Assembly (NCBI RefSeq): GCF_023715655.1
Contig: NZ_JAMBON010000014.1
Coordinates: 1 to 64,000, forward strand
Reading direction: 5' to 3'
Length of the DNA: 64,000 nt
From: Oceanobacillus luteolus
GTDB taxonomy: Bacteria; Bacillota; Bacilli; Bacillales; Amphibacillaceae
The notes below the pieces were generated by a model. The model saw only the letters and a program-made list of their open reading frames with translations. It was not told the DNA's origin and searched no databases. The position numbers were made by a program, and so were the translations under genes. This document shows, in pieces, positions 27,158 to 47,509 of this stretch; the first letter of the stretch is position 1; each line of letters opens with the position of its first letter.

Positions 27158-29533
27158 TTAACTATCCCGATTTACAATATATTGAAGGAAATGTCTTAGA
27201 AAATTCGTCCGCTGTTTGATTTGTTTAAGCGTTTCTGCTGCAAGCGTGTAATGCTCCCACATCGCAATCTTCGCTTGTTCCAATCCTAAAACTGTCACGA
27301 ATGTTGATGTTTCATTTTCAATATCTTGGCCAGTAGGCTTCCCAAGCAATGCTTCATCACTTTCTGCATCGAGTAGATCATCTTTAATTTGGAACGCAAT
27401 CCCAGCATGATACGCGTATTTCTTCAAGGTCGCAATCTCCGCTGCATCCTTGCCAGCCAAAATCGCCGGCATGACGAGAGATGCCTCAAAGGCTAGACCA
27501 GTTTTATAAAAACAGATCGCCTCTAAATGTTCGAGGGTCAACTGCTTATTTTTTGATTCCAGATCCATCAATTGACCTTTGCACATCTCTGTAATCGTGC
27601 TTGATGAATATTGAATTAATTTCAGTACAAGCTTCGCATCAAATGCTTCCAATGTCGTCTGCTCGTAAACAGCCTTTTGAGTTAGGTAAAGCCCGGTAAT
27701 TTCAGCCATCGCGGTATGATAAACTTCATGTAAAGTAGGGCGCCCTCTTCTGAATTCTGCATTATCCTGGGCAGGAAGGTCATCAAAAATCAAGGATGCG
27801 GTATGCATGTATTCCAATGATTTTAATACGGGAACTAACGCCTCTTCTTTAAGATCAAATTCTTCGACGCCCATAAACCAAGTTAATATCGGTCGTAATC
27901 TTTTTCCGCCGCTTTCCAAAGAATAATTGGCAGCTTTGGCCAGGGGTACTTCCAAATTTGCTGACAGCCCTGTTGCGTTAGGAATATCTTCAACAGATAT
28001 GAATTCATTGATGGCTATTCGAAGTTCCTCAATCTTCGCCAAAAATTCATCTCTTTCCTCTTCTTCCTGTCCATAATTTGCAATCATATGGTCGCGGATC
28101 AGCTTATCAAGGAAATCTACATCTTCTGCCTTTTGGATTAGCCTTTGAAGATGATTCCAAAAGTCTTCTTCCCCAGGCTTTATGACCGCCATCAAATCTT
28201 CATATGAGCTGTCTCCGATCCGCTTTTTAAAACGCTGCTGACTATTGATTGCCCGGCTCACCATGACTTCCCGTACGACGTCATCAGAATCATACACATG
28301 ATGAAGTAAATAAGTAACTACCGTCCAATACAGTTCAAACGGATTCAGTAAATCCTTGCGTTTTTCATGATACGTTAAATAATACGTGTATGGAGTGACA
28401 GCCCCCGCTTCTAAATCCATAAACATATCCGTAAAGTCATCTGCCAACTGATTATAAATTCCATAATAAAATGTCCGATCATGGAAACCGTCATCTACCG
28501 GAGCGCCAATGATGGAACGGACGATCAATCGGGAAAAGGCTGATTTTAATATAATTGGAACGAAAATTTCTTCATTACGATAATGTGGATTGTCCAATGT
28601 TTTTAAACGGTCTCTTTCCTGTGCTTCAAAAAATACATATGCTTCCTCGAAAAAGCGATTGCGTAAAGCTTCTGGCTGCTTCTCCTTTATATATTCAAAT
28701 CCTGCCTTCAGTTCGGTGTGGATAAAACCGATGAAATCGGGGTGAGATCCAGTCCACTGCGTCATGTCTGGTACTTCACCTGTAACAAGGGTTGAACGGA
28801 TAAAAGCAGAATACTGCTTTTTCTCAACTGCAGTCAATAGATCAGAATCTAGTAAGTCATCGATGAATGGGTAGGTAAGGCCGTACGCATATCCTAATCG
28901 GATGGACTCATCCAATGCCTCTCTTCGCTCATCAGGAGTCACATCTTTCGGTAGATGATCCAATTGATGCATGAGTACCCCAGCAATCAATTTCAGTAAT
29001 TTCCTACGAGCTTCTGATGCATCCAATCCGTCAGGGATGACCTGTTGGATGTTCTTGACTTTTTCAATTAACCATATAAACGAGCTTTCAATTCCTTCCT
29101 TTTGGGCCAGTCTGAATAGACTTTCCATCCGGAATAATTCATTCTTATCACTGATTAGTATGTTTTTAAAGAATGCTTTTGTGCGTTCAAGCTTTTCTCC
29201 TGAATCTGCTTCGGTTAAGGACTTTCCTAAATCACGTATAAAAATGTAGGCGACACTGCGATCAAGAAATCTTTCTAATTGCTTTGTGCCATCCAACCAT
29301 TTGATGTAGCGATGATAGTTTTTTCGACTAGGTTTGTTTTTGCGTTTCATTAGGAAGTCCACAGCAGAGTGCTTTCCGACATGCTGTTTTTCCCAGATTT
29401 TCAAGTCTTCCAGCAAGGTGGAGGCATACGTTTTTGCCGCAACCCCATGAGAAAGCTCAGAAAAATATTCCATCGCTCTCTTTTCCTGCACCTGATAGCT
29501 TTCTTCTCTTTTCTTACTCCATTCTTTATCCAT
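27158..29533 (-). CDS. Large polyprenyl synthetase-like protein with a terpene-synthase-like N-terminal region
   Basis: A 791-residue fusion. Residues about 500-790 are a trans-isoprenyl diphosphate synthase of the FPP/GGPP type: GGKRLRP at 542-548, first Asp-rich motif DDLPAQD at 584-590, RRGRP at 595-599 and second motif KDDLLDAESD at 717-726. Residues 1-500 are all-helical and carry two more Asp clusters, FIDDLLDSD at 223-231 and LADDFTDMFMD at 363-373, each resembling a second Asp-rich motif. I infer a partner prenyltransferase or terpene-synthase domain, so the protein may both make and use a prenyl diphosphate. Typical synthases are about 300 residues. It lies divergent from the large regulator at 29780. 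Confidence 0.75.
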   Translation of the reverse strand: MDKEWSKKREESYQVQEKRAMEYFSELSHGVAAKTYASTLLEDLKIWEKQHVGKHSAVDFLMKRKNKPSRKNYHRYIKWLDGTKQLERFLDRSVAYIFIRDLGKSLTEADSGEKLERTKAFFKNILISDKNELFRMESLFRLAQKEGIESSFIWLIEKVKNIQQVIPDGLDASEARRKLLKLIAGVLMHQLDHLPKDVTPDERREALDESIRLGYAYGLTYPFIDDLLDSDLLTAVEKKQYSAFIRSTLVTGEVPDMTQWTGSHPDFIGFIHTELKAGFEYIKEKQPEALRNRFFEEAYVFFEAQERDRLKTLDNPHYRNEEIFVPIILKSAFSRLIVRSIIGAPVDDGFHDRTFYYGIYNQLADDFTDMFMDLEAGAVTPYTYYLTYHEKRKDLLNPFELYWTVVTYLLHHVYDSDDVVREVMVSRAINSQQRFKKRIGDSSYEDLMAVIKPGEEDFWNHLQRLIQKAEDVDFLDKLIRDHMIANYGQEEEERDEFLAKIEELRIAINEFISVEDIPNATGLSANLEVPLAKAANYSLESGGKRLRPILTWFMGVEEFDLKEEALVPVLKSLEYMHTASLIFDDLPAQDNAEFRRGRPTLHEVYHTAMAEITGLYLTQKAVYEQTTLEAFDAKLVLKLIQYSSSTITEMCKGQLMDLESKNKQLTLEHLEAICFYKTGLAFEASLVMPAILAGKDAAEIATLKKYAYHAGIAFQIKDDLLDAESDEALLGKPTGQDIENETSTFVTVLGLEQAKIAMWEHYTLAAETLKQIKQRTNFLRHFLQYIVNRDS

Positions 29534-29779
29534 CTATAATACCCTCTATCTTTATTTCAATTATTACGTAAAACGAGCTAACATCATAATTTTACTTCAT
29601 TCCTCTATATGAAAGGGAATGATCACATTTGATAAAATAATATTCTCAACGTAACACGAATATAATGAATAAGCTAGACTGAACAACTATCCATACTTTG
29701 TAAAATTGATTTCACTGGTTAGTCAAGCTATGGTAAAATGAAAGAAAATACTAAATTGTCCAGAAAGGGGGATTGGGAA

Positions 29780-32700
29780 ATGAGAAATATACCGATAGTG
29801 AAAGGGCAGATTTCGGCACCGCCAACAAGTAATCGGTTTATTGAACGTAGTCAATTGAATAAAAAGTTCAGGGATATCCCGAACAATCCACTCACTCTTG
29901 TATATGCCGGTGCTGGTTATGGTAAAAGTACGGCACTCACTTTGTTTGCTGAGAAGCAAAAAGCAGTTTCCTGGTATTCCATTTCCCAACATGACGACGA
30001 TCTGTTACCCTTTATCGTAAAAACCATTTATGCCATTCGCCATTGCCATCCTGAATTTGGCGAAACCCTCCAAAAGGAAATCCAACATCTTGATAACTAT
30101 ATGACAACTGAAGAAATTTATTCCATAGCGACGTTATTTATTAATGAGATAGCTGAACGGCAAGAGAAAATTATTTTAATTTTGGACGACTTTCATCATG
30201 TGATGCAGGTGACTGACATTGAAAATTGGTTGCTGTATGTCCTTGAATATATGCCGCCGAATTTCCATCTTATCGTGGCAAGCAGAAGAAAACCACGCTG
30301 GAAAATACTGCCGAAGTTGATGGGGCAAGGTGATTTACTTGAGATTACGCAGTATGACTTAGTCCTTTCGCCAGCAGAGATGTCTTATATATTGGAAGAA
30401 ATTTATGAAATGAGTTTATCCGACAAGGAAGTAGCTAATATTTATCGTCTTACGGAAGGTTGGGCAATCGCTTTTAATATGTTGGCCCAACAGCTCGTCG
30501 AGAATACGTCGATTACGACTTTGCTTAGCAATCAGAAAAAGTCGCTCAGGGATTTGTTTTCCTATTTAGCGACGGAAGTACTTTCGAAACAATCACTAAT
30601 CACCCAACAATTTCTTATGCAATCCAGCATTTTACATGTGCTCACTCCGGAAACTTGTGATTATGTATTAGATATCCAAGGATCTGAGGAAATTCTGACC
30701 AACCTGCTGGAACAGAATCTGTTTATTGAGGAAGGAGATGGAACCTATCGTTATCACGCTCTGTTTCAAGCATTTTTAGAAAATGCGATGAAAGAAAAAT
30801 ACGAAGTCGAATGGAAAGCGCTCCATAAGCGAGCCGCTAATTACTTTGAGCGGAAAGGGGATAGCGAATCTGCATTATACCATTACCAGGAAATCAATGA
30901 AGAGCAGGCTATTGCAGCTATTCTTAATAAGAAGGGAAGTTCCATGCTTCAGGCTGGTCGATTACAAGCTTTATATGATTTATTGAACGGATTGCATGAT
31001 GTCTATAAAGTGAAATATCCGCGACTCTACTTTTACCAAGGTGAAATTGAGCGATATCGTTCATTATATGAAGAGGCTGAACAAAGCTATGATGCGATGA
31101 TTGCAGCCTTGGAAGAGGGAAATGAAGATACCTATTTAATGAGTCTTGCACTTGAAGGCAAGGCACAAATTTATCTCGATACGATTCAACCGGATCGTGC
31201 AGAACGGTTTGTTAATCAAGCGCTTATCCTTCGGGAACAGGCAAATGCCACAAAGAAGGAAATGGCTAAAATTTATATCCTGATGGCTGAAAACTTGTTG
31301 AATGCAGGACAAGCTGTAAAAGCAGAAGCTTGGTATGACCGGGCGAAACGGCTGAACCTACCGTTGGAGGAGAGCAACCTGCAGGCCCGTATCTATTTAA
31401 GGACCGGCCGGTTACAGAAGGCGAAAGAAGTTTTAATCGAAAAGAAAACGAAAAGCCGCACACAGAAACACTTACCCCAATCCCATCGGGAGACGGATGT
31501 AATTTTATCGTTGATTGCAGCCTTTATGGGAGACGCAGAGGAAAGTAAACGACTAGCGACAGAAAGTATCCAACTAGGTTTGAAAACCCAATCTCCTTTC
31601 GTTGAGGCATGTGGTTGGATGCGTCTGGGCCATTCCGCTCAGCTGACGAATCAATACGACCAGAAGCTCGCTATCCAATGTTATGAAACGGCTTTGAATG
31701 TGATGGAGAAAATTAATGTATCCCGTGGAAAAGCAGAACCGTATATGGGTCTATCCATTTTATACGGACATGCGAAAAACTATCATCTTGCCATCGATCA
31801 TGCAGAACGTGGGCTAATCGAAACAGAAAAAGTAAAAGATCGCTGGCTTGGTGCGCTTATCAAACTCGGAATGGTCATTACAGAAATTTATCAAAGTAAC
31901 TATGAAAGGGCATCGGAAATTCTGGAGCAAGTAAGAAATGATATGCGTGCTTGTGGTGATCGCTATGCACTCATGTTGACGCATTTTTGGTCCGCTTATA
32001 TCGCTTTTGAACAGCAAGATACAGATACATTCAAAATGGAAATGACGGAATTTCTCCAAGCCGTCCAATTGGAAGGCTATGAATTCTTCCTGAAGAAACG
32101 GACTAGTTTCGGCCCGCTTGATATGCAAAATATCGCTCCAATGCTTCTTGAGGCGCGAAAGTTGAAGGTGGAAACTGCTTTCGTTTCACGGATGCTCACC
32201 GAGCTTGGAGTTGATCATGCGATTAAGAATCATCCGGGTTATACATTAGTTATTCATACGCTCGGCAACTTGAGATTGACTTTAGGCACAAAGGAAATAG
32301 CTCTTCAAGATTGGCAACGTGGAAAGGCGAAGGAATTATTTGAGTTATTGATTACCCATCGTCATATGAAATTACAGAAAGAGGAAATCTTCCAGTATTT
32401 ATGGCCGGATCAGGAGGAGGAAACGGCGAATAAAAACTTCAAGGTGACATTGAACGCTTTGCTTAAAGTACTGGAACCTCATAGAAAAGCACGGGAGGAA
32501 TCTTTCTTCGTTTTACGTGAAGGTAGTGCGTACGGATTAAACCCTAATGCTGCCTATGAAATGGATAGTATGATATTTGAAAATCTCATCAGCAAAGGGT
32601 TGGAAGAAACCAATCCGAGACATGCTGCCGAAATTCTGGAAGAAGGGCTTAATCTTTATAAAGGAGATTATTTAAACGATCTCCGTTTTAAATCATGGAC

Positions 32701-33016
32701 AAACTCAGAACGGGAACGGCTACGTCAGCTCTTTCTACGAGGTGCTGAACTACTTGCCCAGCACGCGATTCGGCTGCTGGAATTCAATCTCGCCCTAGAG
32801 TGGTGTGAACGGATTCTTGCGGTAGATCCGACTTGGGAGGAGGCGTATCGACTGCTCATGTATTGTTATTATCAAAACAACAACCGCCCACAAGCAATCC
32901 GTTGGTATGAGAAATGTTGCGAAGTGCTTGAGGACGAGTTGGGGGTAGAGCCGATGGAGCAGACGAGGGAAATGTATAAATTGGTGTTGGATGCTGAAGA
33001 GCTGGATGTTTACTAG
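29780..33016 (+). CDS. Large STAND-type regulator: AAA/NACHT-like ATPase, TPR repeats, winged helix and BTAD
   Basis: A 1078-residue MalT/SARP-like regulator. Walker A is AGAGYGKST at 43-51 and Walker B is ILILDDFHH near 133-140. A TPR-rich region spans about 370-800. An OmpR/SARP-type winged helix lies at about 823-915 (LTLGTKEIALQDWQRGKAKELFELL), and a bacterial transcriptional activator (BTAD) TPR domain ends the protein (GDYLNDLRFKSWTNSERERL, CCEVLEDELGVEP). ATG 29780 follows AAAGGGGGATTGGG. It faces the prenyl-synthase gene across 246 bases, so control of that gene is the simplest inference; the effector is unknown. Confidence 0.85.
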   Translation: MRNIPIVKGQISAPPTSNRFIERSQLNKKFRDIPNNPLTLVYAGAGYGKSTALTLFAEKQKAVSWYSISQHDDDLLPFIVKTIYAIRHCHPEFGETLQKEIQHLDNYMTTEEIYSIATLFINEIAERQEKIILILDDFHHVMQVTDIENWLLYVLEYMPPNFHLIVASRRKPRWKILPKLMGQGDLLEITQYDLVLSPAEMSYILEEIYEMSLSDKEVANIYRLTEGWAIAFNMLAQQLVENTSITTLLSNQKKSLRDLFSYLATEVLSKQSLITQQFLMQSSILHVLTPETCDYVLDIQGSEEILTNLLEQNLFIEEGDGTYRYHALFQAFLENAMKEKYEVEWKALHKRAANYFERKGDSESALYHYQEINEEQAIAAILNKKGSSMLQAGRLQALYDLLNGLHDVYKVKYPRLYFYQGEIERYRSLYEEAEQSYDAMIAALEEGNEDTYLMSLALEGKAQIYLDTIQPDRAERFVNQALILREQANATKKEMAKIYILMAENLLNAGQAVKAEAWYDRAKRLNLPLEESNLQARIYLRTGRLQKAKEVLIEKKTKSRTQKHLPQSHRETDVILSLIAAFMGDAEESKRLATESIQLGLKTQSPFVEACGWMRLGHSAQLTNQYDQKLAIQCYETALNVMEKINVSRGKAEPYMGLSILYGHAKNYHLAIDHAERGLIETEKVKDRWLGALIKLGMVITEIYQSNYERASEILEQVRNDMRACGDRYALMLTHFWSAYIAFEQQDTDTFKMEMTEFLQAVQLEGYEFFLKKRTSFGPLDMQNIAPMLLEARKLKVETAFVSRMLTELGVDHAIKNHPGYTLVIHTLGNLRLTLGTKEIALQDWQRGKAKELFELLITHRHMKLQKEEIFQYLWPDQEEETANKNFKVTLNALLKVLEPHRKAREESFFVLREGSAYGLNPNAAYEMDSMIFENLISKGLEETNPRHAAEILEEGLNLYKGDYLNDLRFKSWTNSERERLRQLFLRGAELLAQHAIRLLEFNLALEWCERILAVDPTWEEAYRLLMYCYYQNNNRPQAIRWYEKCCEVLEDELGVEPMEQTREMYKLVLDAEELDVY

Positions 33017-35934: not shown

Positions 35935-36534
35935 ATGTCAGAAATTAAAAGTTCGCGACTAACGAAAAAAGGAATCGAGACGAAAAGAAGGATATTAACA
36001 ACTGCGGAACAAGTTTTTGGGGAGAAAGGTTATTATGAAACATCTGTTGCGGAGATTACGCTCCGAACTGGAGTAGCACAAGGGACATTCTACAATTACT
36101 TTCCAACGAAAAAAGCTGTTTTCGATGAATTGATTTACCAATTGAGCTCTGATCTTCGTTTTGCCATTAAGGAGGCAATGGAGGAGCAGGAGGGATTCGA
36201 GGAAAAACAACGGGCCGGCTACCATGCATTTTTTAAATGGGTGCTTGACCATAGAAACCTCTATAGTGTTGTCCAGCAGTTGGTATTGGTAGATCCTTCT
36301 TTATATCGCTGGTATTATGAAAAGCTTGCCGATGGCTTCATCAAATCCATTGAAACAGCGATTGATGGTGGGGATTGTAAACCCCTCCTACCTGAAACAA
36401 TTGCTTACTCGATGATGGGCATCGGTCAATTTATTGGAATGCGCTGGGTCCTTTGGGAGAATGAGCTTGTCCCGGATGATGTGTTCGATGAAGTCATGGA
36501 AGTTATCTTTCATGGAATAAATGGCAGGGGGTAG
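35935..36534 (+). CDS. TetR family regulator (FadR-like)
   Basis: A 199-residue TetR protein. The helix-turn-helix is at about residues 25-60 (VAEITLRTGVAQGTFYNYFPTKKAVFDELI). The ligand domain is of the kind seen in acyl-CoA-responsive Bacillus regulators. It heads the acyl-metabolism run, and its stop codon is five bases before the ligase start, so it is probably autoregulatory and controls the whole operon with an acyl-CoA as inducer (inference). AGAGGTGAG precedes ATG 35935. Confidence 0.85.
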   Translation: MSEIKSSRLTKKGIETKRRILTTAEQVFGEKGYYETSVAEITLRTGVAQGTFYNYFPTKKAVFDELIYQLSSDLRFAIKEAMEEQEGFEEKQRAGYHAFFKWVLDHRNLYSVVQQLVLVDPSLYRWYYEKLADGFIKSIETAIDGGDCKPLLPETIAYSMMGIGQFIGMRWVLWENELVPDDVFDEVMEVIFHGINGRG

Positions 36535-36539
36535 TGAAC

Positions 36540-38033
36540 ATGGAATCGATTGCTTATTGGATTCATAAACGAGCGGAGATTACTCCGAACCGTACTGCAC
36601 TCATAAGTGAACAGAATCGTTATACGTACAAGGAGCTTTCAGAAAAAGTCACGCAGATGGCAAGTGTGCTGCATCATGAATACAAGCTGGAAAAAGGGGA
36701 GCGTGTGGCCATCTTATCTTATAACCGTGAGGAGTATATGATTGCCTACTTTGCAATTGCTCAACTGGGTTTAATTGCCGTCCCTTTAAACATCCGCTTG
36801 CGTGCCGCAGAATTAGCCTTTCAAGTAAATGATAGTGGAACAAAGATGATTCTCTATGAAAACAGCACAGAAGAGTTATTAGAGGCCATAAAAACTTTTT
36901 ACCGATTTGAAAACGCTTACTCATTTGATGAAGAATTTCCCAAACAAAAGAACACCATTCCAAACGTTTCTATCGACTTTAATGATGATCCGTTTATTAT
37001 TTGTTACACGTCTGGCACGACGGGGAGACCTAAAGGAGCGGTATTAACTCAAGCGAATATGTTTTGGAACGCATTGAATAATCAATATGCCCTAGATATT
37101 ACATCAAAGGATATCACGCATGTTCTATTGCCGCTCTTCCATATCGGCGGGATTGGCTTATTCGCTTTCCCTACTTTGCTTGCCGGTGGGACGATCGTCG
37201 TACCGAATAAATTTCATCCGGAAGAAGTGATCCGGGCAATTGAAATGTACGGAATAACCATAGTTATGGGTGTCCCGACCATTCACGATACAATCCGTAA
37301 ACATCCGTTATTTGCAACTGCAGATTTTTCTTCTGTCCGCTGGTTCTATAGCGGGGGTGCACCTTGTCCTAAGGAACTTATCCATAGCTTCCTTGAGCGT
37401 GGCTTGCCGTTTGGTCAGGGAATGGGAATGACGGAAACTTCACCGACGATTTTCATGTTATCTGAAGAAGATTATAGGCGAAAAGTCGGTTCGATTGGAA
37501 AACCAGTGATGTTTTGTGACATAGCACTTGTGGATGAAGCAGGTAAGCCTGTAAAGCAGGGGGAGGTTGGAGAACTCATCCTCAAAGGTCCGAACATCCT
37601 GAAAGAATATTGGGGACTTCCAGAACAAACGAAAGAAGCGATTCGTGATGGTTGGTTCTATACTGGTGATCTGATGCGCCAAGATGAAGAAGGATTCATT
37701 TATGTAGCGGGACGAAAGAAAGACATGATTATTTCCGGCGGGGAAAATATTTATCCGCTCGAAGTGGAGCAAATCATCTATACACACGAGGCTGTCAGTG
37801 AAGCAGCTGTTATAGGGATAGAAAATGAAAAATGGGGAGAGATACCAATTGCATTCATTTCCCTAAGTGATGGAAAAACAATAAGCGATGAAGAACTCAT
37901 TTCGTTTTGCAAGACGAAGCTAGCAAACTATAAAGTTCCGAAACGCATTTATGTGTTAGATGAATTGCCGAAAAATGCGACTGGAAAGATTGATAAAGTG
38001 AAGCTGAAAGAGTTAATCAGTACGGTTCCCTAA
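36540..38033 (+). CDS. Acyl-CoA ligase (AMP-binding, class I)
   Basis: A 497-residue ANL-superfamily enzyme. The P-loop is YTSGTTGRPKGAV; A5 reads MGMTETSP, A7 FYTGDLMRQDEEGFIYVAGRKKDMI, A8 SGGENIYPLEVE and A10 NATGKIDKVKL with the catalytic lysine. It activates a carboxylic acid to acyl-AMP and then to the CoA thioester. It is in an operon with a Liv-type importer, so the acid may come from outside. ATG 36540 is eight bases from CAGGGGG. It is paralogous to the ligase at 47997. Confidence 0.9.
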   Translation: MESIAYWIHKRAEITPNRTALISEQNRYTYKELSEKVTQMASVLHHEYKLEKGERVAILSYNREEYMIAYFAIAQLGLIAVPLNIRLRAAELAFQVNDSGTKMILYENSTEELLEAIKTFYRFENAYSFDEEFPKQKNTIPNVSIDFNDDPFIICYTSGTTGRPKGAVLTQANMFWNALNNQYALDITSKDITHVLLPLFHIGGIGLFAFPTLLAGGTIVVPNKFHPEEVIRAIEMYGITIVMGVPTIHDTIRKHPLFATADFSSVRWFYSGGAPCPKELIHSFLERGLPFGQGMGMTETSPTIFMLSEEDYRRKVGSIGKPVMFCDIALVDEAGKPVKQGEVGELILKGPNILKEYWGLPEQTKEAIRDGWFYTGDLMRQDEEGFIYVAGRKKDMIISGGENIYPLEVEQIIYTHEAVSEAAVIGIENEKWGEIPIAFISLSDGKTISDEELISFCKTKLANYKVPKRIYVLDELPKNATGKIDKVKLKELISTVP

Positions 38034-38069
38034 TTCAGAATATTAATAATAGAAAGTGAGGTGTCAATC

Positions 38070-38483
38070 ATGGATTTTGAGATTGGACAGACTGCATCCT
38101 TTTCCAGAACGATTACCGAAACAGACTTCATGATGTATGCCGGTTTGAGCGGTGACTATAACCCGATTCATGTCGACAAAGTGTATGCTAAGAAGACATT
38201 TTTTAAAGAACGGATCAGTCATGGATTATTGACTGCGAGTTTCCTATCCCGGTTGTTGGGAATGCATTTGCCTGGCCCAGGTTCTGTCTATGTTTCGCAA
38301 ACATTGCATTTTGAGAAGCCGGTATATATCGGAGATACGATTACAGCCAAAGCTGAGGTAATAGACTTGGAGAATTCCAAACGGCTGCTGACATTGGCAA
38401 CGACTTGTGAGAATCAACACGGAGATATTGTTTTACAGGGCGAGGGATTGATGAAACTTCCAAAAAAGGAGGAGCAAAGATGA
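38070..38483 (+). CDS. MaoC-like (R)-specific enoyl-CoA hydratase
   Basis: A 137-residue hotdog-fold hydratase. The hydratase-2 motif D-x4-H is present in SGDYNPIHVD, followed by ISHGLLTASFLSRLLGMHLPGPGSVY. PhaJ-type members interconvert enoyl-CoA and (R)-3-hydroxyacyl-CoA. Here it lies with a FabG/PhaB-like reductase and a PhaZ-like hydrolase, a combination that points to (R)-3-hydroxyacyl units. AAGTGAGGTG precedes ATG 38070. It overlaps the next gene by four bases (ATGA). Confidence 0.85.
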   Translation: MDFEIGQTASFSRTITETDFMMYAGLSGDYNPIHVDKVYAKKTFFKERISHGLLTASFLSRLLGMHLPGPGSVYVSQTLHFEKPVYIGDTITAKAEVIDLENSKRLLTLATTCENQHGDIVLQGEGLMKLPKKEEQR

Positions 38484-39487
38484 TCGGTATTCAAGCTACG
38501 AGTATTTATGAACCTGCTCTAAAAGCGACAGCGGGAGAATTGGCAATTAAAACAGGGATTCCGGAAGAGGTGATTATTGAAAAGTTCGGACTCTATGAAA
38601 AGAGGGTTGCTCCAGAGCATGAACATGCTTCCGATTTGGCGGTCGCAGCGGGAAAAGAGATTCTGAAATCCGTCGATCCCCTTGAGATTGATGTTGTCAT
38701 CTATTTTGGCAGTCCGTATAAAGATTATCCAATCTGGACTGCTTCCTCCAAAGCACAATATGAACTTGGTACAAAAAATGCATACTCGTTTGAGATGATG
38801 AATGTGAGCTCTTGCTTTCCAATCGCTGTCAAGGTTGCCAAGGACATGATTTATTCTGATAAAAGTATTAACCATATTTTACTGGTTGGTGGCTCGAAGG
38901 AATCACAGGCTATCAACTACGAGAATCCGCGCTCCCGCTTTATGTTCAATTTTGCGGATGGAGGAGCGGCTGCTTTAGTGTCCAGGAATGCGACGAAAAG
39001 TGAAATTCTAGCGTCATCTATTATTACGGATGGCTCCTTTCATGCGGATGTCCTTGTTCCTGGAGGAGGTTCTGTCCATCCTGTCAGTGAAGAAGTGGTC
39101 CAAGAAAAATCGCATTATTTAGATGTGCCTGATCCACAAGGAATGAAAGAAAGATTGGACCCAGTATCCATTCCAAATTTCACCCGTGTCATTCATGAGG
39201 CAGTAGAAAAGAGTGGTGCAAATATAAAAGATTTAAAAGTACTTCTACCATTACACACTAAAAAGTCGATGTTTCGGGATTTGCTGAAATCAGTAGGTTT
39301 ACAAGAGGAACAAGCCGTTTATTTAACGCATCATGGACATATGTCTGCACTGGACCCTTGTTTTGGGATTCATTTGGCAGAAAAAGCGGGGATGCTGAAT
39401 CAGGGAGACCTTGCCGTCATCGTTTCTGCAGGCACAGGTTATACATGGGCTGCCACTGCCATTCGGTGGTTGGAATCTGCGATGTAA
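38480..39487 (+). CDS. KASIII-like (FabH-type) condensing enzyme 1
   Basis: A 335-residue thiolase-fold enzyme of the 3-oxoacyl-ACP synthase III group. The probable nucleophile is C112 (MMNVSSCFPIA) and the first active-site His is H259 (LLPLHTKKS). At the position of the FabH Asn I see H287 in YLTHHGHMSA. That would give a Cys-His-His site, unlike the Cys-His-Asn of fatty-acid FabH. It is unlikely to be housekeeping FabH, because it sits in a catabolic-looking operon. A role in condensation, acyl transfer or thiolysis is inferred. Confidence 0.8.
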   Translation: MIGIQATSIYEPALKATAGELAIKTGIPEEVIIEKFGLYEKRVAPEHEHASDLAVAAGKEILKSVDPLEIDVVIYFGSPYKDYPIWTASSKAQYELGTKNAYSFEMMNVSSCFPIAVKVAKDMIYSDKSINHILLVGGSKESQAINYENPRSRFMFNFADGGAAALVSRNATKSEILASSIITDGSFHADVLVPGGGSVHPVSEEVVQEKSHYLDVPDPQGMKERLDPVSIPNFTRVIHEAVEKSGANIKDLKVLLPLHTKKSMFRDLLKSVGLQEEQAVYLTHHGHMSALDPCFGIHLAEKAGMLNQGDLAVIVSAGTGYTWAATAIRWLESAM

Positions 39488-39558
39488 CTTCCTTGTAACT
39501 TAAAGTGACTATGATGACTTCAAGTAGTAATGAATTTCTAAAAGGGGGCAAACGTATC

Positions 39559-40761
39559 ATGAAAGTTAAACGTATTTGGGGTTTACTATTGATTGTCTTT
39601 ATAATCGGTATTCTTGCGGCATGCGGCGATGATGGGGAAGCTGCATCAGGCGATCAAGATGTTGTAAAAGTTGGGGTACTTATTTCCGGAACGGGAGCAT
39701 TAGAGACATACGGTCTGCAAACCCAACGAGGCTTCGAATTAGGTATTGAATATGGGACAGACGGTACCAATGAAGTAGCAGGCAAAAAAATCGAGTATAT
39801 TTTTGAAGATACAGAAACCGATCCAACGGTTGCAAGACAAAAAGCATTGAAGTTGTTGGAAGAAGATGAAGTGGATTTCCTTGTCGGATCTTCCAGTTCA
39901 GGGGATACACTGGCAGTCACTCCGTTAGCAGAGGAGTATGAAACGATTATGGTAGTTGAACCTGCGGCGGCAGATAGTATTACTGGAGCGGAATACAATG
40001 ACTACGTATTCCGAACTGCTAGAAACTCTTCTCAGGATGCTAAGGCTGCAGCTGTTGCAGTTGCAGGAGAAGGAGTTAAAATTGCTACCCTTGCACCAGA
40101 TTATTCATTTGGGCATGACGGTGCAAAAGCATTCATTGAAGCTGCGGAAGAGCTAGGGGCAGAGCTTGTACTGGAAGAATATGCAGACCAGGCAGCTACA
40201 GACTTCACAGCGAACATCCAGAAGATTATTGAAGCAAAACCAGATTATTTATTCGTTGTTTGGGCAGGAGCGAATACGCCATGGAACCAAATTGCGGATA
40301 TGCGTCTGGACGAGCAAGGAATTAAAGTGACAACAGGTGTGGCAGATATTGCTACGTTGCCATCAATGACACCGTTAGTTGGAATGGAAGGGTTTACACT
40401 GTATTATCATGACCTTCCAGACAACGAAGTGAATGATTGGCTCGTAGAAAAACATATGGAAGAGCATGACTCTCCACCAGATCTGTTTACAGCAGGGGGA
40501 ATGAGTTCCGCACTTGCGATTATTGAGGCGCTTAAACAAACGGATGGAGATACCGATGGTGCCAAGTTAATTGAAACCATGGAAGGCATGAGTTTTGAGA
40601 CACCGAAAGGGACAATGACGTTCAGACCGGAAGACCATCAGGCGTTACAGGAAATGTATTCCGTCACATTGGAAGAAAGTGATGAATTCGACTATCCTGT
40701 TCCGGTTCTGAAGGAAGTCCTGACACCAGAACAAACGGCACCACCGATTATGAATCAATAA
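39559..40761 (+). CDS. Branched-chain-type ABC transporter substrate-binding lipoprotein
   Basis: A 400-residue lipoprotein: MKVKRIWG, a hydrophobic core, then the lipobox LAAC with C22. The mature domain is a LivK/type I periplasmic-binding fold (VKVGVLISGTGALETYGLQT, DEVDFLVGSSSSGDTLAVTPL). This class binds amino acids, amides, urea or aromatic acids. Context with acyl ligases suggests a carboxylic or hydroxy acid. AAAGGGGGC precedes ATG 39559. A perfect hairpin follows the gene, as often seen after binding-protein genes. Confidence 0.88.
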   Translation: MKVKRIWGLLLIVFIIGILAACGDDGEAASGDQDVVKVGVLISGTGALETYGLQTQRGFELGIEYGTDGTNEVAGKKIEYIFEDTETDPTVARQKALKLLEEDEVDFLVGSSSSGDTLAVTPLAEEYETIMVVEPAAADSITGAEYNDYVFRTARNSSQDAKAAAVAVAGEGVKIATLAPDYSFGHDGAKAFIEAAEELGAELVLEEYADQAATDFTANIQKIIEAKPDYLFVVWAGANTPWNQIADMRLDEQGIKVTTGVADIATLPSMTPLVGMEGFTLYYHDLPDNEVNDWLVEKHMEEHDSPPDLFTAGGMSSALAIIEALKQTDGDTDGAKLIETMEGMSFETPKGTMTFRPEDHQALQEMYSVTLEESDEFDYPVPVLKEVLTPEQTAPPIMNQ

Positions 40762-40770
40762 AAAATTTAA

Positions 40771-40804
40771 GACAAATCCTTTCTTCCTATAGAAAGGATT
40801 TGTC
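40771..40804 (+). terminator. Perfect hairpin between the binding-protein and ATPase genes
   Basis: Arms GACAAATCCTTTCT and AGAAAGGATTTGTC (14 bp, perfect) flank the loop TCCTAT. The T tract is poor, so partial termination or 3-prime protection of the upstream mRNA is more likely than full termination. Confidence 0.7.
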
Positions 40805-40833
40805 CTCCATTTTAACGTGAAGGAGGAAGTGGC

Positions 40834-41586
40834 TTGACAGCAATACTAGAGACAAAGGACTTATCGATTGCTTTTGGTGGGCATGTGGCTGTTAACGGTG
40901 TAACTGTGGAGATACCCGAGAAGAAGTTCACCTCGATCATTGGACCAAACGGAGCAGGAAAAACCACTTTTTTCAACCTACTGAGCGGTCAGCTCTCTCC
41001 TACCAACGGGTCAATATATTTTAAAGGCGAAGACATCACTAAAGTATCAACTACAAAACGAGCCCGCATGGGAATTGGTAGGTCCTTTCAAATTACAAAT
41101 GTTTTCCCGAATTTAACAGTTTTAGAAAATGTTCGTTTAGCAGTGCAGTCAAAAAATAAGGTTAGATATAATATTTTCTCTCATTTTAAGCATTACCCGG
41201 GTTTTGAGAAGCGTTCCTTAGAGTTATTGGATATCGTTTTCTTAAAGGAAAAAGCGAATGCAATTGCAGCAAGCCTCGCCCATGGAGAAAAGCGGAAATT
41301 GGAAATTGCGATGCTTCTCGCTTTGGAAACTGAAATTTTACTATTGGATGAGCCGACAGCCGGAATGTCTGTCGAGGAAGTTCCCGCAATTATGGATGTG
41401 ATCAGGAATATCAAAGATGAAGGCAATCGTACCATCGTACTGATAGAGCATAAAATGGATATGATTATGGGGTTGTCTGATGAAGTGTTGGTGCTTTATC
41501 ACGGAGAGTTGATTGCTAAGGGCACACCTGCAGAAATTGTTGAAAATGAAACGGTGCAGGCGGCGTATTTAGGAGGTGGCGTGTAA
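40834..41586 (+). CDS. Branched-chain-type ABC transporter ATP-binding protein (LivG-like)
   Basis: A 250-residue ATPase with Walker A GPNGAGKTT, the LivG-type insertion ARMGIGRSFQITNVFPNLTVLENV, signature LAHGEKRKLEIAM, Walker B ILLLDEPTAGM and VLIEHKMD. The start is TTG 40834 after AAGGAGGAAG. It overlaps the next gene by one base. It energises the importer with the LivF-like subunit. Confidence 0.92.
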   Translation: MTAILETKDLSIAFGGHVAVNGVTVEIPEKKFTSIIGPNGAGKTTFFNLLSGQLSPTNGSIYFKGEDITKVSTTKRARMGIGRSFQITNVFPNLTVLENVRLAVQSKNKVRYNIFSHFKHYPGFEKRSLELLDIVFLKEKANAIAASLAHGEKRKLEIAMLLALETEILLLDEPTAGMSVEEVPAIMDVIRNIKDEGNRTIVLIEHKMDMIMGLSDEVLVLYHGELIAKGTPAEIVENETVQAAYLGGGV

Positions 41587-42293
41587 TGGAAAATCTGCTC
41601 GAATTAAAAAAAGTGGAGGCATTTGTCCAACATTATCATATTTTACACGACATCTCTTTTGAAGTGCCTAAGGGTGAAGTGACGGTCCTATTAGGCAGAA
41701 ATGGAGCCGGAAAAACGACGACGCTTCGAACAATCATGGGACTGAACCGGGTGTCCAAGGGAAGCATTTCCTTTAAAGGTGAATCCATTGTAGGACGCAC
41801 TACTTTTGATATTGCGAATAGTGGAATCGGCTATGTCCCCGAGGACCAAGGGATCTTCGGTGGCTTGACGGTTGGTGAAAATCTACGGGTCGCGATGAAG
41901 AAGGAAGATGAAAAAACGACGGAGAGACTCGAGTGGATATTGGAGCTTTTTCCAGATTTAAAGAAGTTCTGGAAGAAGGAAGGCGGACAGTTAAGTGGTG
42001 GGCAAAAGCAAATGCTCTCAATCGCCAGAGCCTATGTAAATGAAAATGATCTCTTGCTTATCGACGAACCAAGTAAAGGACTCGCTCCAATTATGGTGGA
42101 CAAAGTGACAGAATCCATCCAGCAAATGAAGGAACAGACGACCATCGTATTGGTGGAGCAGAATTTTATGATGGCTAGTCAAATCGGCACCCGCTTCTAC
42201 ATTATTGATGATGGAGTTACAGTCCATAGCGGTGCAATGGATGAACTGAAGGAAGATAAGCAATCGATGAAAAAATACCTTGGGATTTCATAG
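41586..42293 (+). CDS. Branched-chain-type ABC transporter ATP-binding protein (LivF-like)
   Basis: A 235-residue ATPase: Walker A GRNGAGKTT, GIGYVPEDQGIFGGLTVGENL, signature LSGGQKQMLSIARA, Walker B LLIDEPSKGLAP and VLVEQNF. The ATG uses the final A of the LivG-like stop codon, so translation is coupled. It pairs with the LivG-like protein as the second ATPase. Confidence 0.92.
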   Translation: MENLLELKKVEAFVQHYHILHDISFEVPKGEVTVLLGRNGAGKTTTLRTIMGLNRVSKGSISFKGESIVGRTTFDIANSGIGYVPEDQGIFGGLTVGENLRVAMKKEDEKTTERLEWILELFPDLKKFWKKEGGQLSGGQKQMLSIARAYVNENDLLLIDEPSKGLAPIMVDKVTESIQQMKEQTTIVLVEQNFMMASQIGTRFYIIDDGVTVHSGAMDELKEDKQSMKKYLGIS

Positions 42294-42304
42294 GGGGAGT
42301 GAAA

Positions 42305-43165
42305 ATGGAGTTATTCATAAGCTTAGTCATTAACGGGCTTGCGACGGGCATGTTAATCTTCCTCCTTGCTGCCGGTCTGACACTGATATTTGGATTAATG
42401 AGTGTGTTGAACTTTGCACATGGTGGGTTATTCATTTGGGGAGCGTATACCGGTGTTTGGGTCTTTCAGATGACAAATAGCTTTACACTGGGAATTGTCG
42501 CTGCAATTCTAATTGGTCTACTACTTGGTCTGGTTACAGAGCGTCTCGTCATACGTCCAGTATATGGAAACCATATGCAGCAAATTTTAATTACGTTAGG
42601 ATTTATGCTCGTTTTGCAAGAATTGATTAAAGTAGCATTCGGTCCTGACCAAAAAGCGGTTTTCCCACCTGATTTTCTTGCGGGAAGCTTCATGGTTGGA
42701 GACATCGTACTTATCAAATATCGTTTGTTTATTATTGCGGTTGGTATCCTCGTCTTTGTCATTGCCAGTTTAATCTTGAAAAAGTCACGAATCGGCTTGA
42801 TCGTTCGAGCTGGGGTAATGGATAAGGAAATGGTGCAGGCGCTTGGAATCAATATCAAACTTGTTTTTATGCTTGTGTTCATGACAGGTGCTGGGTTGGC
42901 CGCATTAAGTGGAATCCTGCATGCGGTATATTCTGGTGTCATATATGCAGAGATGGGACTTGAATTCTCTATCTTGGCATTTATCGTTGTTGTTATCGGT
43001 GGAATGGGTAGTTTTCCTGGATCATTATTTGCAGCTATTCTGGTTGGATTAGCACAAGCCTTTATGGCTTACTATGTGCCGGCTCTATCATTGGCAGTGA
43101 ACATGCTTTTGATGACCATTGTACTCATTTTCCGACCACAAGGCTTGTTTCAGGTGAAGGGGTGA
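42305..43165 (+). CDS. Branched-chain-type ABC transporter permease (LivH-like)
   Basis: A 286-residue permease with about eight helices. LivH signatures are GLTLIFGLMSVLNFAHGGLFIWGAY near the start and LEFSILAFIVVVIGGMGSFPGSLFAA near the end. AGGGGGAG precedes ATG 42305; the in-frame GTG 42299 overlaps that box. It lies 11 bases after the LivF-like gene. Confidence 0.92.
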   Translation: MELFISLVINGLATGMLIFLLAAGLTLIFGLMSVLNFAHGGLFIWGAYTGVWVFQMTNSFTLGIVAAILIGLLLGLVTERLVIRPVYGNHMQQILITLGFMLVLQELIKVAFGPDQKAVFPPDFLAGSFMVGDIVLIKYRLFIIAVGILVFVIASLILKKSRIGLIVRAGVMDKEMVQALGINIKLVFMLVFMTGAGLAALSGILHAVYSGVIYAEMGLEFSILAFIVVVIGGMGSFPGSLFAAILVGLAQAFMAYYVPALSLAVNMLLMTIVLIFRPQGLFQVKG

Positions 43166-43171
43166 GGATAA

Positions 43172-44191
43172 GTGAATTTACGTCGTGTGGAAACGAGTAC
43201 GTGGATCTATTTAGCCATTAGTTTTCTATTAATCTTTATTCCGTTTATTGTAACGGGCAGAAGTATGCAATTTATCTTCATTCAAATCTTCATTTTTGCG
43301 ATTTTCGCGATGAGTTATGATATTTTGCTAGGGTTTACAGGTATCATTTCGTTCGGACATGTCATGTTCTTTGGGATTGGTGCTTATTCCACTGCGGTTA
43401 CTCTTGGACGGATGGATGCTACGATTGGTTCCTTCGTTCTGGGAGCAATCATCGCATTAGTTATTGCCGCAATTGTAAGTTTGATTGTTGGAGCGCTCAC
43501 GCTTAGGCTGAAAAGTCATTTCTATGCGATGCTCACTTTGGCGCTTGCAGGATTATTCCTCGTATTAGCGGAAAAATGGCGCTCGGTTACAGGAGGGAAT
43601 GACGGATTCACTTTCAGCCTGCCCGAATTTTTCCGTGATTCGGAGACGATGTATTGGTTCTCCTTACTGTCGATGGTGTTGATATTTTTCGGGCTAAGAC
43701 GGTTTACAAGATCTCCATTTGGCCGGGTGCTCATGGCAATCCGTGAGAATGAAAATCGGACAGAATCATTAGGTTTTCAGGTCACTTATTATAAAGTGTT
43801 GGCAAGTGTTGTCGCAGGTGTTGTTGCTAGTTTTGCAGGGGTATTATATGCCTTGTCACTCCGATTTGTAAATACAGCAGTGTTTGCAACAGACCTGACG
43901 ATTGATGTGTTACTCATGACGATTATCGGTGGAGTTGGAACATTGATTGGCCCGATTGTCGGAGCAGGGTTAGTGGAATTTGCACATCATTGGCTATCTG
44001 GTCTGGCGGATGTGCATTGGATTTTTGAACGGTGGATCATCCTTTACGGAATCGTCTATGTCCTCGTCGTTATCTTTTTCCCGCTCGGGATTGTCGGAAC
44101 TATTCAATCGAAGTTTATGAACCGTCCAGTGCGGGCGCTCCGAACGAATCGAAAATCAGACGGCAAGAAGGAAAATAGGAAAGGGGCTTGA
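43172..44191 (+). CDS. Branched-chain-type ABC transporter permease (LivM-like)
   Basis: A 339-residue permease. LivM signatures are AMSYDILLGFTGIISFGHVMFFGIGAYS and VLLMTIIGGVGTLIGPIVGAG. The start is GTG 43172, six bases after the LivH-like stop. The C-terminus is strongly basic (RALRTNRKSDGKKENRK). It completes a five-part importer with the binding protein, two ATPases and LivH. Confidence 0.92.
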   Translation: MNLRRVETSTWIYLAISFLLIFIPFIVTGRSMQFIFIQIFIFAIFAMSYDILLGFTGIISFGHVMFFGIGAYSTAVTLGRMDATIGSFVLGAIIALVIAAIVSLIVGALTLRLKSHFYAMLTLALAGLFLVLAEKWRSVTGGNDGFTFSLPEFFRDSETMYWFSLLSMVLIFFGLRRFTRSPFGRVLMAIRENENRTESLGFQVTYYKVLASVVAGVVASFAGVLYALSLRFVNTAVFATDLTIDVLLMTIIGGVGTLIGPIVGAGLVEFAHHWLSGLADVHWIFERWIILYGIVYVLVVIFFPLGIVGTIQSKFMNRPVRALRTNRKSDGKKENRKGA

Positions 44192-44198
44192 ACATATT

Positions 44199-45206
44199 GT
44201 GAACATTGGGATTGTAAGTACGGGAATCTACCTACCTGAGCAGCGGATGACATCAGAGGAAATTGCCGAAAAAGCAGGACTTCCATTAGAAGTTGTCGAA
44301 CAGAAGATGGGGATTAAGGAAAAACCTATACCTGGGGAAGATGATCATACAGTCGAAATGGGAGTGAGAGCGGCCAATAAGGCGATTGAAAAAGCGGGGA
44401 TTGACCCGAAGGAAATCGATCTTGTCATATATATTGGTGAGGAGTATAAGGAATATCCAGTTTGGACAGCGGGAATTAAACTGCAGCATGAAATTGGTGC
44501 GACGAATGCGTGGGCTTTTGATACAGCTCTCCGCTGTGGAACGACAGTCATGGCATTGAAACTTGCGAAAGACATGATGCTTCAGGATGATTCAATCGAG
44601 ACGGTACTGCTTGCAGGGGGATACCGGAACGGTGACTTGATAAACTATGAAAATAGCAGTACCCGGTTTATGTTTAATCTTGCTGCAGGGGGCGGCGCAT
44701 TGGTACTGAAAAAGGGGCATGCGGAGAATCGGATCTTAACATCGCATCTGATTACCGATGGTGCTTTTTCAGAAGATGTGATTGTCCCTGCAGGCGGGAC
44801 GAAACAGCCTATCAGCCAAGAAGCGGCGGAGGTCGGTCTTCACTTTTTTGACGTCCCGGATCCAGCCGGAATGAAGGCGCGCTTGGAAGAAAAATCAATG
44901 GTCAATTTTATCCAATGTATCGAGAAGGCTTTGGAAAAGAGCGGATACACAAAGAAAGACGTTGATTATGTCGCCATCCTTCATATGAAACGGTCGGCAC
45001 ATCACTATGTGCTGGATCAGCTTGGATTGTCAGCTGAACAATCGATTTATTTAGAGGATTATGGCCATATCGGGCAAATCGATCAAATATTATCATTAGA
45101 GCTTGCTGAAGCAGAAGGAAAGCTCAAAGATGGCTCCATTGTTGTCTTAGTTTCTGCGGGAATCGGTTATGCATGGGGTGCAAATGTCATTAAATGGGGA
45201 AAGTAA
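44199..45206 (+). CDS. KASIII-like (FabH-type) condensing enzyme 2
   Basis: A 335-residue paralogue of the enzyme at 38480, equal in length and alignable throughout (YPVWTAGIKLQHEIG matches YPIWTASSKAQYELG). The probable nucleophile is C113 (TALRCGTTV). H262 (AILHMKRSAHH) and H290 (EDYGHIGQ) again suggest Cys-His-His. Having two equal-length copies in one operon suggests a heteromeric enzyme or two successive steps. The start is GTG 44199, seven bases after the LivM-like stop. Confidence 0.8.
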   Translation: MNIGIVSTGIYLPEQRMTSEEIAEKAGLPLEVVEQKMGIKEKPIPGEDDHTVEMGVRAANKAIEKAGIDPKEIDLVIYIGEEYKEYPVWTAGIKLQHEIGATNAWAFDTALRCGTTVMALKLAKDMMLQDDSIETVLLAGGYRNGDLINYENSSTRFMFNLAAGGGALVLKKGHAENRILTSHLITDGAFSEDVIVPAGGTKQPISQEAAEVGLHFFDVPDPAGMKARLEEKSMVNFIQCIEKALEKSGYTKKDVDYVAILHMKRSAHHYVLDQLGLSAEQSIYLEDYGHIGQIDQILSLELAEAEGKLKDGSIVVLVSAGIGYAWGANVIKWGK

Positions 45207-45221
45207 GGAGGACTGATAATC

Positions 45222-46133
45222 ATGTTGGTTGAAGAGAAAAGTGTAGAGTTAGCGAACGGTGAAGAGATTTACTATCAGGAAAGAAATGGTGGTGAAGATC
45301 CGGTCATACTCATACACGGAAATATGACGTCTTCCGTTCACTGGGATGTAGTAATCGAAAAGCTGGACCCTCACTTCAAAGTGTATGCGATTGATTTGCG
45401 CGGATTTGGTAAATCGAGTTACAAGCAACCAATTACGGGAATAAAAGACTTTTCTGATGACTTGAAGTTATTTGTAGACGAACTGGAATTGAAAGATTTC
45501 GGTTTAGTTGGCTGGTCCCTCGGTGGTACGGTGAGTCAGCAGTTTTGTGCGGATTATCCAGGATATTGTAATCGTTTATATCTATTTGCTTCCGGCTCTT
45601 CACGCGGGTACCCTTACTATCCAGTAGGAGAAGACGGTTTGCCTGATGTCGCAAACCGTCTGCGCACGTTGGAGGAGATTCGTGAAGATGATAAGGCGAA
45701 ATATGTGCAGACCGCTTATGATACGCTGAATTATGACTTTTTAAGACAAATGTGGGATATGGTCATTTATGTAAATAAAAAGCCGGATGAAGCTCGCTAT
45801 GAAAAGTATTTGGAAGCGATGACGAATCAGCGGAATTTGGTGGATTGTTATCATGCGTTAAATACATTCAATATCAGTAATGTGCATAATGGCTTGGTGG
45901 AAGGCACCAATCAAGTGGATGATATCAATATCCCGGTGCTCATCGCATATGCAGATAATGATATGGTCGTTACGAAAAATATGACAGATGAGTTGATTGA
46001 GGATTTTGGTGAGCGGGCAGAAGTAGTTGAGCTTAAAAATTGCGGCCATTCCCCACAAGTCGATAATCTATCGCAAGTGGTCGAAACGATGGAACATTTC
46101 TTCGCTAGAAGTAGACAAGGGAGAGTTTTGTAG
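45222..46133 (+). CDS. Alpha/beta hydrolase, intracellular PHA depolymerase (PhaZ)-like
   Basis: A 303-residue alpha/beta hydrolase. The oxyanion segment is LIHGNMTSSVHWD, the nucleophile elbow is GWSLGG, the acid is probably in IAYADNDMVV and the base is H in CGHSP. The phrases RGFGKSSY, SRGYPYYPV and HNGLVEGTNQVDD closely resemble the intracellular short-chain-length polyhydroxyalkanoate depolymerase family I recall from Bacillus. It may cleave 3-hydroxyacyl esters or oligomers. No phaC, phaR or phasin is in the window. AAGGAGG precedes ATG 45222. Confidence 0.72.
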   Translation: MLVEEKSVELANGEEIYYQERNGGEDPVILIHGNMTSSVHWDVVIEKLDPHFKVYAIDLRGFGKSSYKQPITGIKDFSDDLKLFVDELELKDFGLVGWSLGGTVSQQFCADYPGYCNRLYLFASGSSRGYPYYPVGEDGLPDVANRLRTLEEIREDDKAKYVQTAYDTLNYDFLRQMWDMVIYVNKKPDEARYEKYLEAMTNQRNLVDCYHALNTFNISNVHNGLVEGTNQVDDINIPVLIAYADNDMVVTKNMTDELIEDFGERAEVVELKNCGHSPQVDNLSQVVETMEHFFARSRQGRVL

Positions 46134-46877
46134 ATGAAAAGATTGGATGGTAAAGTTGCCATAATTACGGGAGCGGCAAATGGAATTGGACTTGCAGCTG
46201 TCCGTGTTTTTGCGAGAGAAGGGGCCAAAGTGGTGCTCGCAGATTTTGACGAAAAGGCTGGAAAAGAACAGGAACGAGCCCTACAAGGGGAAGGAATAGA
46301 TTGTAAATTTATCCAGGTCGATGTTTCCGACTGGGAAAGTGTGCAATCCCTTGCCAAGGAAACGAAAAATGTATATGGCAAGATTGATATCTTAATCAAT
46401 AATGCCGGAATTACAAGGGATGCTATGTTGGCAAAAATGACGGTCAATCAGTTTCAGCAAGTCATCGACGTAAACCTGACTGGCGTATTCCATTGTACGA
46501 AGGCCGTAATCCCCTATATGATCGAACAAGGAAAAGGTAAAATCGTCAGCACTTCTTCGGTTTCAGGAGTGTATGGAAATGTCGGACAAACGAATTATGC
46601 AGCGGCCAAGTCGGGAATTATCGGTATGACAAAAAGCTGGGCGAAGGAGCTAGGGAGAAAAGGGATTAATGTCAATGCGGTCGTGCCAGGGTTTACAGAA
46701 ACGAGCATGGTAAATACTGTTCCCGAGAAAGTAATTGATCAGATCAAGGCACAAATTCCACAGCAACGCCTCGGGAAACCAGAGGAAATCGCCAATGCTT
46801 ATCTTTTCCTTTCGTCAGATGAATCGGATTATGTGAATGGCCACGCTCTTCATGTAGATGGCGGAATTATGATGTGA
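46134..46877 (+). CDS. FabG/PhaB-like 3-oxoacyl reductase (SDR)
   Basis: A 247-residue SDR. The cofactor motif is TGAANGIG, then NNAGITRDAMLAKM, the catalytic Ser in STSSVSGVYGN and YAAAK. NNAGITRD is characteristic of FabG and PhaB enzymes, which interconvert 3-oxoacyl and (R)-3-hydroxyacyl thioesters. It begins directly after the hydrolase stop and ends the operon at a good terminator. Pathway context with MaoC and the PhaZ-like hydrolase supports a hydroxyacyl-CoA substrate. Confidence 0.88.
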   Translation: MKRLDGKVAIITGAANGIGLAAVRVFAREGAKVVLADFDEKAGKEQERALQGEGIDCKFIQVDVSDWESVQSLAKETKNVYGKIDILINNAGITRDAMLAKMTVNQFQQVIDVNLTGVFHCTKAVIPYMIEQGKGKIVSTSSVSGVYGNVGQTNYAAAKSGIIGMTKSWAKELGRKGINVNAVVPGFTETSMVNTVPEKVIDQIKAQIPQQRLGKPEEIANAYLFLSSDESDYVNGHALHVDGGIMM

Positions 46878-46894
46878 TGCAGCAAATATAAAAA

Positions 46895-46922
46895 ACGAGC
46901 AGTGGCCAACAGCACTGCTCGT
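46895..46922. terminator. Terminator of the acyl-metabolism operon
   Basis: Perfect 10-bp arms ACGAGCAGTG and CACTGCTCGT with an 8-base loop, followed by ATTCTTTT and preceded by AAAAA on the other strand. The genes on both sides converge. Confidence 0.85.
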
Positions 46923-46942
46923 ATTCTTTTCTACACGTCTTC

Positions 46943-47353
46943 TTAATTCAACTTTGCAAATGCCACCAGAGTGCCTTGGTCACAGGATATAAAGCCATTC
47001 TTTTTATAAAAATGCCTTACATCAGGGGCTTCCTCTGTCAATAAAACTTTTTGACGAACGTCTTTATATTTCTCGAGGATTTGTACCATTAATCTACTGG
47101 CAATACCTTGGTTTTGATATGCATTTAATACAAGGATATCTTGGATATAAATAATGGTTAATCCATCTCCCACAACACGCACAAGTCCAACCAGTTTTTC
47201 ACCATCCCAAGCAGAGATGACGTCCAATGATTGTTCCAGCGCACGTTGAAGAACTTCCATTTCTTTTGTATATGCATACCATTCCACGTCATTATATAAG
47301 CTTTCCAATTGGTCGCGGTTTATATTTTTATCAGTTTTATAAGTAATTATCAT
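46943..47353 (-). CDS. GNAT family N-acetyltransferase
   Basis: A 136-residue GNAT protein with acetyl-CoA-binding motif A in IQDILVLNAYQNQGIASRLM (Q-N-Q-G-I-A) and the C-terminal HFYKKNGF. The substrate is unknown. It is monocistronic, facing the acyl operon tail to tail, and has no clear link to it. Confidence 0.85.
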   Translation of the reverse strand: MIITYKTDKNINRDQLESLYNDVEWYAYTKEMEVLQRALEQSLDVISAWDGEKLVGLVRVVGDGLTIIYIQDILVLNAYQNQGIASRLMVQILEKYKDVRQKVLLTEEAPDVRHFYKKNGFISCDQGTLVAFAKLN

Positions 47354-47509
47354 TTCCTCATCCTCCTCAAAATGTATTATTTTGAAGAGTCAATCCATAA
47401 TTTATCCACCAACATGCCTCCTTAAATATCTCTACCTAACTAATTCGACAATAGTAACCAAATTCCTGCTTTCTTGAATTGGAAATAGCAACGCTTCTAT
47501 CCGAGGTCC

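Follow-up and report, generated by a model that had tools for sequence, protein, structure and literature searches.

A 64,000-nucleotide stretch of Oceanobacillus luteolus DNA (contig NZ_JAMBON010000014.1, positions 1 to 64,000; the window) contains a gene for a 791-residue fusion protein, and raises the question of what an enzyme might do whose C-terminal half is a trans-prenyl diphosphate synthase and whose N-terminal half carries two further aspartate-rich motifs. On balance, we favour reading the protein as a chimeric, bifunctional class I isoprenoid synthase from a bacterium, built of two α-type domains, in which the C-terminal half would make a linear diphosphate and the N-terminal half would ionise it. 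The gene is a single open reading frame (ORF) that starts with ATG, follows a ribosome-binding-like AGAGGG and contains no internal stops, and the plus strand across the same interval has stops throughout.

27158..29533, minus strand: whole fusion gene, 791 amino acids plus stop in one open frame; homologues of 783-824 amino acids in 80/80 kept loci (see below)
27944..28036, minus strand: variable linker between the halves, residues 500-530; mean identity 23%, predicted local distance difference test (pLDDT) below 50 at 519-521

The initial annotation had described a complete trans-prenyl diphosphate synthase in the C-terminal half, an assignment that is supported by sequence and predicted fold; the motifs it cited are present as GGKRLRP (residues 542-548), DDLPAQD (584-590), RRGRP (595-599) and KDDLLDAESD (from 717). 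This half scores 173.4 bits against PF00348, above the cut-off of 27, and its best relatives of solved structure are bacterial farnesyl and geranylgeranyl diphosphate (FPP and GGPP) synthases. The features that define it, placed by translation and alignment, are as follows.

27164..27955, minus strand: trans-prenyl diphosphate synthase domain, residues 527-790
27890..27910, minus strand: GGKRLRP, signature for binding isopentenyl diphosphate (IPP)
27764..27784, minus strand: DDLPAQD, first Asp-rich motif (FARM), type II spacing
27368..27382, minus strand: DDLLD, second Asp-rich motif (SARM)
27797..27799, minus strand: Ala579, fifth residue before FARM (from the alignment)

In an alignment of 103 rows (81 plus 22; 101 distinct, with 5 row pairs more than 97% alike), FARM, SARM and GGKRxRP are intact throughout, with a single exception at D590 (identical in 102/103). 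The fusion lacks the aromatic residue that marks farnesyl diphosphate synthases five positions before FARM: position 579 is Ala in 80 of 81 rows and Gly in the other, and Ala in 102/103 of the larger alignment, whereas the FPP synthase of this same genome (locus L002) has Tyr at the equivalent position. On the NCBIfam FPPsyn model (NF045485) the C-terminal half reaches 228.8 bits, below the cut-off of 275, and the genome's own FPP synthase reaches 410.9. Ala579 suggests that the product of this half is longer than C15: FPP synthases halt at C15 on an aromatic residue, and with Ala in its place the most likely product is geranylgeranyl diphosphate (C20) or longer.

The function of the N-terminal half is harder to read from sequence, since neither Pfam nor NCBIfam provides a match for it in the window protein (the Pfam scan gave no hit with E of 1 or below), and no sequence match was found to stand-alone bacterial class I terpene synthases. 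The two motifs that the initial annotation proposed as metal sites, FIDDLLDSD at 223 and LADDFTDMFMD at 363, lie at exactly those positions in the translated ORF, and the accompanying expectation of a class I terpenoid-synthase-like fold is supported by structure prediction and fold search, which place both motifs at helix ends.

29102..29533, minus strand: helical N-terminal extension, residues 1-144; less conserved (mean 37% identity to the window protein) and barely covered by the fold search
28214..29101, minus strand: class I terpenoid-synthase-like helical core (predicted fold), residues 145-440; mean identity 58%
28847..28861, minus strand: DDxxD motif D225-D226-L-L-D229, at the C-terminal end of helix 200-229 (placed by alignment)
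28415..28441, minus strand: second metal motif D365-D366-x-x-D369-x-x-x-D373, at the end of helix 350-368, in place of NSE/SARM

D225, D226 and D229 give the N-terminal half the DDxxD/E motif in 103/103 rows; a canonical NSE/DTE motif, (N/D)Dxx(S/T)xxxE, is not found there, its counterpart being DDxxDxxxD in 103/103 rows. A rival reading takes the predicted fold as no more than a generic helical bundle, with an unrelated function such as binding a prenylated partner. The Foldseek matches have weak E-values (lowest Protein Data Bank, PDB, row 2.3e-3) and a large root-mean-square deviation, the Z scores of the VIA search (residues 91-483) are borderline, and no profile match is significant. Nevertheless, every one of the 50 Foldseek rows listed belongs to the same superfamily instead of scattering across helical bundles, and both metal motifs lie at helix ends, as in the C-terminal half, so that we regard a generic bundle as very improbable.

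The N-terminal half could instead be a second prenyltransferase that elongates the product of the C-terminal half, couples two chains or prenylates another acceptor, with no terpene made. The DDxxDxxxD motif is nearer to SARM than to NSE, polyprenyl diphosphate synthases head the Foldseek rows, and R177, K178 and K181 (invariant in 81 rows) precede the first Asp motif by 44-48 residues, compared with 40 for GGKRxRP in the C-terminal half. Six members show weak, sub-cut-off PF00348 matches in their N-terminal halves, the matched stretch ending on DDxxDxxxD in four of them. A profile comparison of the two halves gave no significant match that would mark the N-terminal half as an internal duplicate of the C-terminal half; its best local pairing sets motif 365-373 onto SARM, and the next involves motif 225-229. 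However, the N-terminal half has neither GGKRxRP nor an RRG after its first motif, it matches neither PF00494 nor PF10776 at E up to 1, and the VIA search ranks terpene synthases above prenyl synthases (best 14.6 versus 12.3), all of which make a second prenyltransferase an unlikely account of this half.

The same two profile results led us to reject squalene/phytoene synthase (PF00494) and YtpB/DUF2600 (PF10776) as identities for the N-terminal half; both families are also absent from the matches listed in a scan of 75 members (25 of the 36 matched families listed). Scattered weak matches in that scan, including AvrM-A (8/75), PhoU (5/75), NF045864 (9/75) and Thy1, among others, were set aside as sub-cut-off or sporadic. 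Separately, the N-terminal model matches two uncharacterised giant-virus proteins, from Cedratvirus kamchatka (A0A6G8MX44, E 1.2e-4) and Pithovirus LCPAC403 (A0A481ZCB8, E 1.8e-4); these E-values are lower than that of any PDB row but come from a different library, and from such model-based matches it is possible that giant viruses encode isoprenoid-synthase-like proteins.

Conservation across homologues bears on whether the N-terminal half is active at all. D225, D226, D229, D365, D366, D369, D373, D584, D585, D718, D719, D722, K544, R545 and R547 are identical in 103/103 rows, and given this invariance the Asp and K/R motif positions are not a product of chance. Mean identity to the window protein is 37% for residues 1-144, 58% for 145-440, 38% for 441-499, 23% for the linker and 63% for 531-791, so the N-terminal core is conserved nearly as well as the C-terminal half; pairwise distances in the two halves are correlated (0.903), as would be expected of one long-lived unit. 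These data are relevant to the proposal that the N-terminal half has lost catalysis or serves in regulation, as a covalently attached analogue of the small subunits of heteromeric prenyl synthases, in a protein that yields prenyl diphosphate only. Some trans-prenyl synthases are indeed heteromers that include a non-catalytic subunit, as described in PMC7839719, and the global predicted template modelling score (pTM) of 0.83 suggests a defined domain packing. The small subunit described there lacks the Asp motif, whereas seven Asp residues of the N-terminal half are invariant, and this, together with the near-equal conservation of its core, leaves a dead or regulatory partner improbable.

The survey of homologues that the initial annotation had called for revealed a conserved family instead of a singleton. 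At the family level, 55 of 159 genomes (own included) match at E 1e-60, 52 of them in one piece, one of which (G082) carries an in-frame stop, and three (G108, G011, G022) in two pieces. At the order level 47/397 genomes match at E 0.001, among them G272, whose match spans model positions 18-115 only and is probably due to chance; at the phylum level the count is 6/299 with this genome included, and one of the six lies outside the class. G272 aside, the N-terminal matches at these two levels sit in open frames of 775-859 codons, a length that fits a fusion, the C-terminal half not having been looked at in each. In a collection of named genomes, an alignment-based scan found a relative encoded in 427 of 484 candidate stretches, and a scan of the same collection with a single protein query returned zero matches. 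Eighty of the 427 relatives were kept and examined, and all are full fusions of 783-824 amino acids, from Neobacillus, Sporosarcina, Paenibacillus, Metabacillus, Psychrobacillus, Oceanobacillus, Virgibacillus and others; the closest named relative among them is that of Oceanobacillus alkalisoli (65% across the whole protein). No plasmid-borne copies were found at E 1e-40.

In three genomes the family occurs as two adjacent ORFs (L043 7995-10435, L044 8001-10366, L045 7992-10384), with the break near the inter-half linker in L043, within the N-terminal half in L044 and within the C-terminal half in L045. Gene decay, sequencing error or, for L043, real fission are candidate explanations.

Returning to the chimeric synthase, we infer a route in which the C-terminal domain would condense dimethylallyl diphosphate (DMAPP) and IPP to a linear all-trans prenyl diphosphate and hand it over to the N-terminal domain. 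The latter, putatively a new class I terpenoid synthase by fold and isolated in sequence, would bind Mg2+ through DDxxD (225-229) and DDxxDxxxD (365-373), strip the diphosphate from this product, and then cyclise it or quench it as a terpene alcohol or hydrocarbon. This order of reactions would be that of the fungal chimeric synthases, by analogy with PMC8307374 and PMC9177416. The picture drawn in the initial annotation, of a self-contained enzyme that makes a prenyl diphosphate and then cyclises or transfers it, is supported in part, by the identity of the C-terminal half, the predicted N-terminal fold and the conservation of the fusion. The same genome encodes an FPP-type (L002) and a HepT-type (L003) prenyl synthase, a separate DUF2600/YtpB-type gene (L169 1495-2541, minus strand; PF10776 452.9 bits) and a separate squalene/phytoene-synthase-type gene (L170 1294-2157, minus strand); because of the last two, the N-terminal half would represent a third terpenoid-synthase-type activity in this organism.

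No biosynthetic cluster is apparent around the fusion gene: it stands alone, and no neighbour is kept in most of the 80 loci. The commonest nearby ORF, which we take to be SelO/YdiU-like, occurs in 21/80 loci (63/80 have at least 21 kb). The window neighbours at 26150, 26568, 25406, 29738 and 33302 have no homologue covering half of the query in the other loci compared, many of which are short-flanked; a single such homologue was found for the neighbour at 24765 (L117) and 29 for the ABC-ATPase gene at 21121, as expected of so large a family. The neighbour at 29738-33016 (plus strand), 204 bp away and transcribed divergently from the fusion gene, encodes a 1092-residue ATPase/TPR regulator with a C-terminal BTAD domain (PF03704); such SARP-like regulators often control secondary metabolism. 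Further away, a long same-strand run (36534-49502, plus strand) has the look of an uncharacterised operon, whether catabolic or biosynthetic. It includes two ketoacyl-ACP-synthase-III-like genes and, named by eye, genes for a hydrolase, a dehydrogenase, an ABC transporter of the branched-chain-amino-acid type and two acyl-CoA-ligase-like proteins.

Control by an alternative sigma factor was considered and rejected: none of eight promoter patterns is common, the top one (sigma-A type) occurring in 6/81 upstream regions, and a sigma-E type pattern (4/81 versus 23/1164 controls) is too rare to build on. Enriched 7- and 8-mers upstream of the gene mostly reflect the ribosome-binding site. The sequence TAAATATA is present in 20/81 upstream regions (200 bases each) versus 16/1164 control regions, and AT-rich stretches upstream of the gene resemble each other across loci (window, L053-L132); together these are possibly a shared promoter element.

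Chimeric prenyltransferase-terpene synthases (PTTS) are prized for building a whole terpene out of C5 units with a single gene. A family conserved across the bacterial genera Oceanobacillus, Neobacillus, Sporosarcina, Metabacillus and Paenibacillus would make a new set of terpene scaffolds accessible, would suggest convergent evolution of the chimeric architecture, and would add a terpene-synthase subclass missed by current sequence models, because the N-terminal half matches no Pfam or NCBIfam family. More tentatively, and at somewhat less than even chances, these proteins may be genuine chimeric class I terpene synthases, widespread among bacteria and arisen separately from those of fungi; the N-terminal half would then be a new subclass whose second metal site is prenyltransferase-like, and the product an undescribed C20-or-longer terpenoid common to many soil and marine Bacillales. 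No earlier description of such a bacterial fusion was recognised, by title and opening of the abstract, in the literature searched, most subscription journals and preprints lying outside its scope.

Among known systems, IspA and CrtE, bacterial farnesyl/geranylgeranyl diphosphate synthases of type II, share fold, FARM, SARM and GGKRxRP with the C-terminal half, which differs from them in its sub-cut-off FPPsyn score and its fusion to the N-terminal half. BjKS and other stand-alone class I terpene synthases of bacteria share the predicted N-terminal core fold and DDxxD, but have NSE where the fusion has DDxxDxxxD. YtpB/DUF2600 large-terpene synthases (class IB) occur in the same bacteria and combine a class I-like fold with two unusual Asp motifs, given as DYLDNLxD and DY(F,L,W)IDxxED in PMC7839719; the kinship to YtpB-type enzymes raised in the initial annotation is nonetheless not supported, as the motifs differ, PF10776 gives no match to the N-terminal half of the window protein and the genome has a PF10776 gene of its own.

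The closest parallel in architecture is with fungal PTTS such as fusicoccadiene synthase PaFS, MpMS and TvTS, described in PMC8307374 and PMC9177416 as an N-terminal class I terpene synthase and a C-terminal trans-prenyltransferase in one chain of ~700 residues, and in the former (2021) as 'occurring only in fungi'. No fungal PTTS is named among the best 60 of 168 matches or in 10 rows of a second search, and no tree was made; none of full length is among the 50 VIA rows, which we do not take as absence of kinship. The O. luteolus protein differs from these enzymes in being bacterial, in lacking the NSE motif, in its ~145 additional N-terminal residues and in a C-terminal half whose best solved relatives are bacterial. 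It shares with them the domain order and four Asp-rich motifs, an N-terminal terpene synthase domain (by predicted fold only) and a C-terminal prenyltransferase domain standing in one chain, so that an arrangement known in fungi from published work is found here in a bacterium, and is conserved in many related bacteria.
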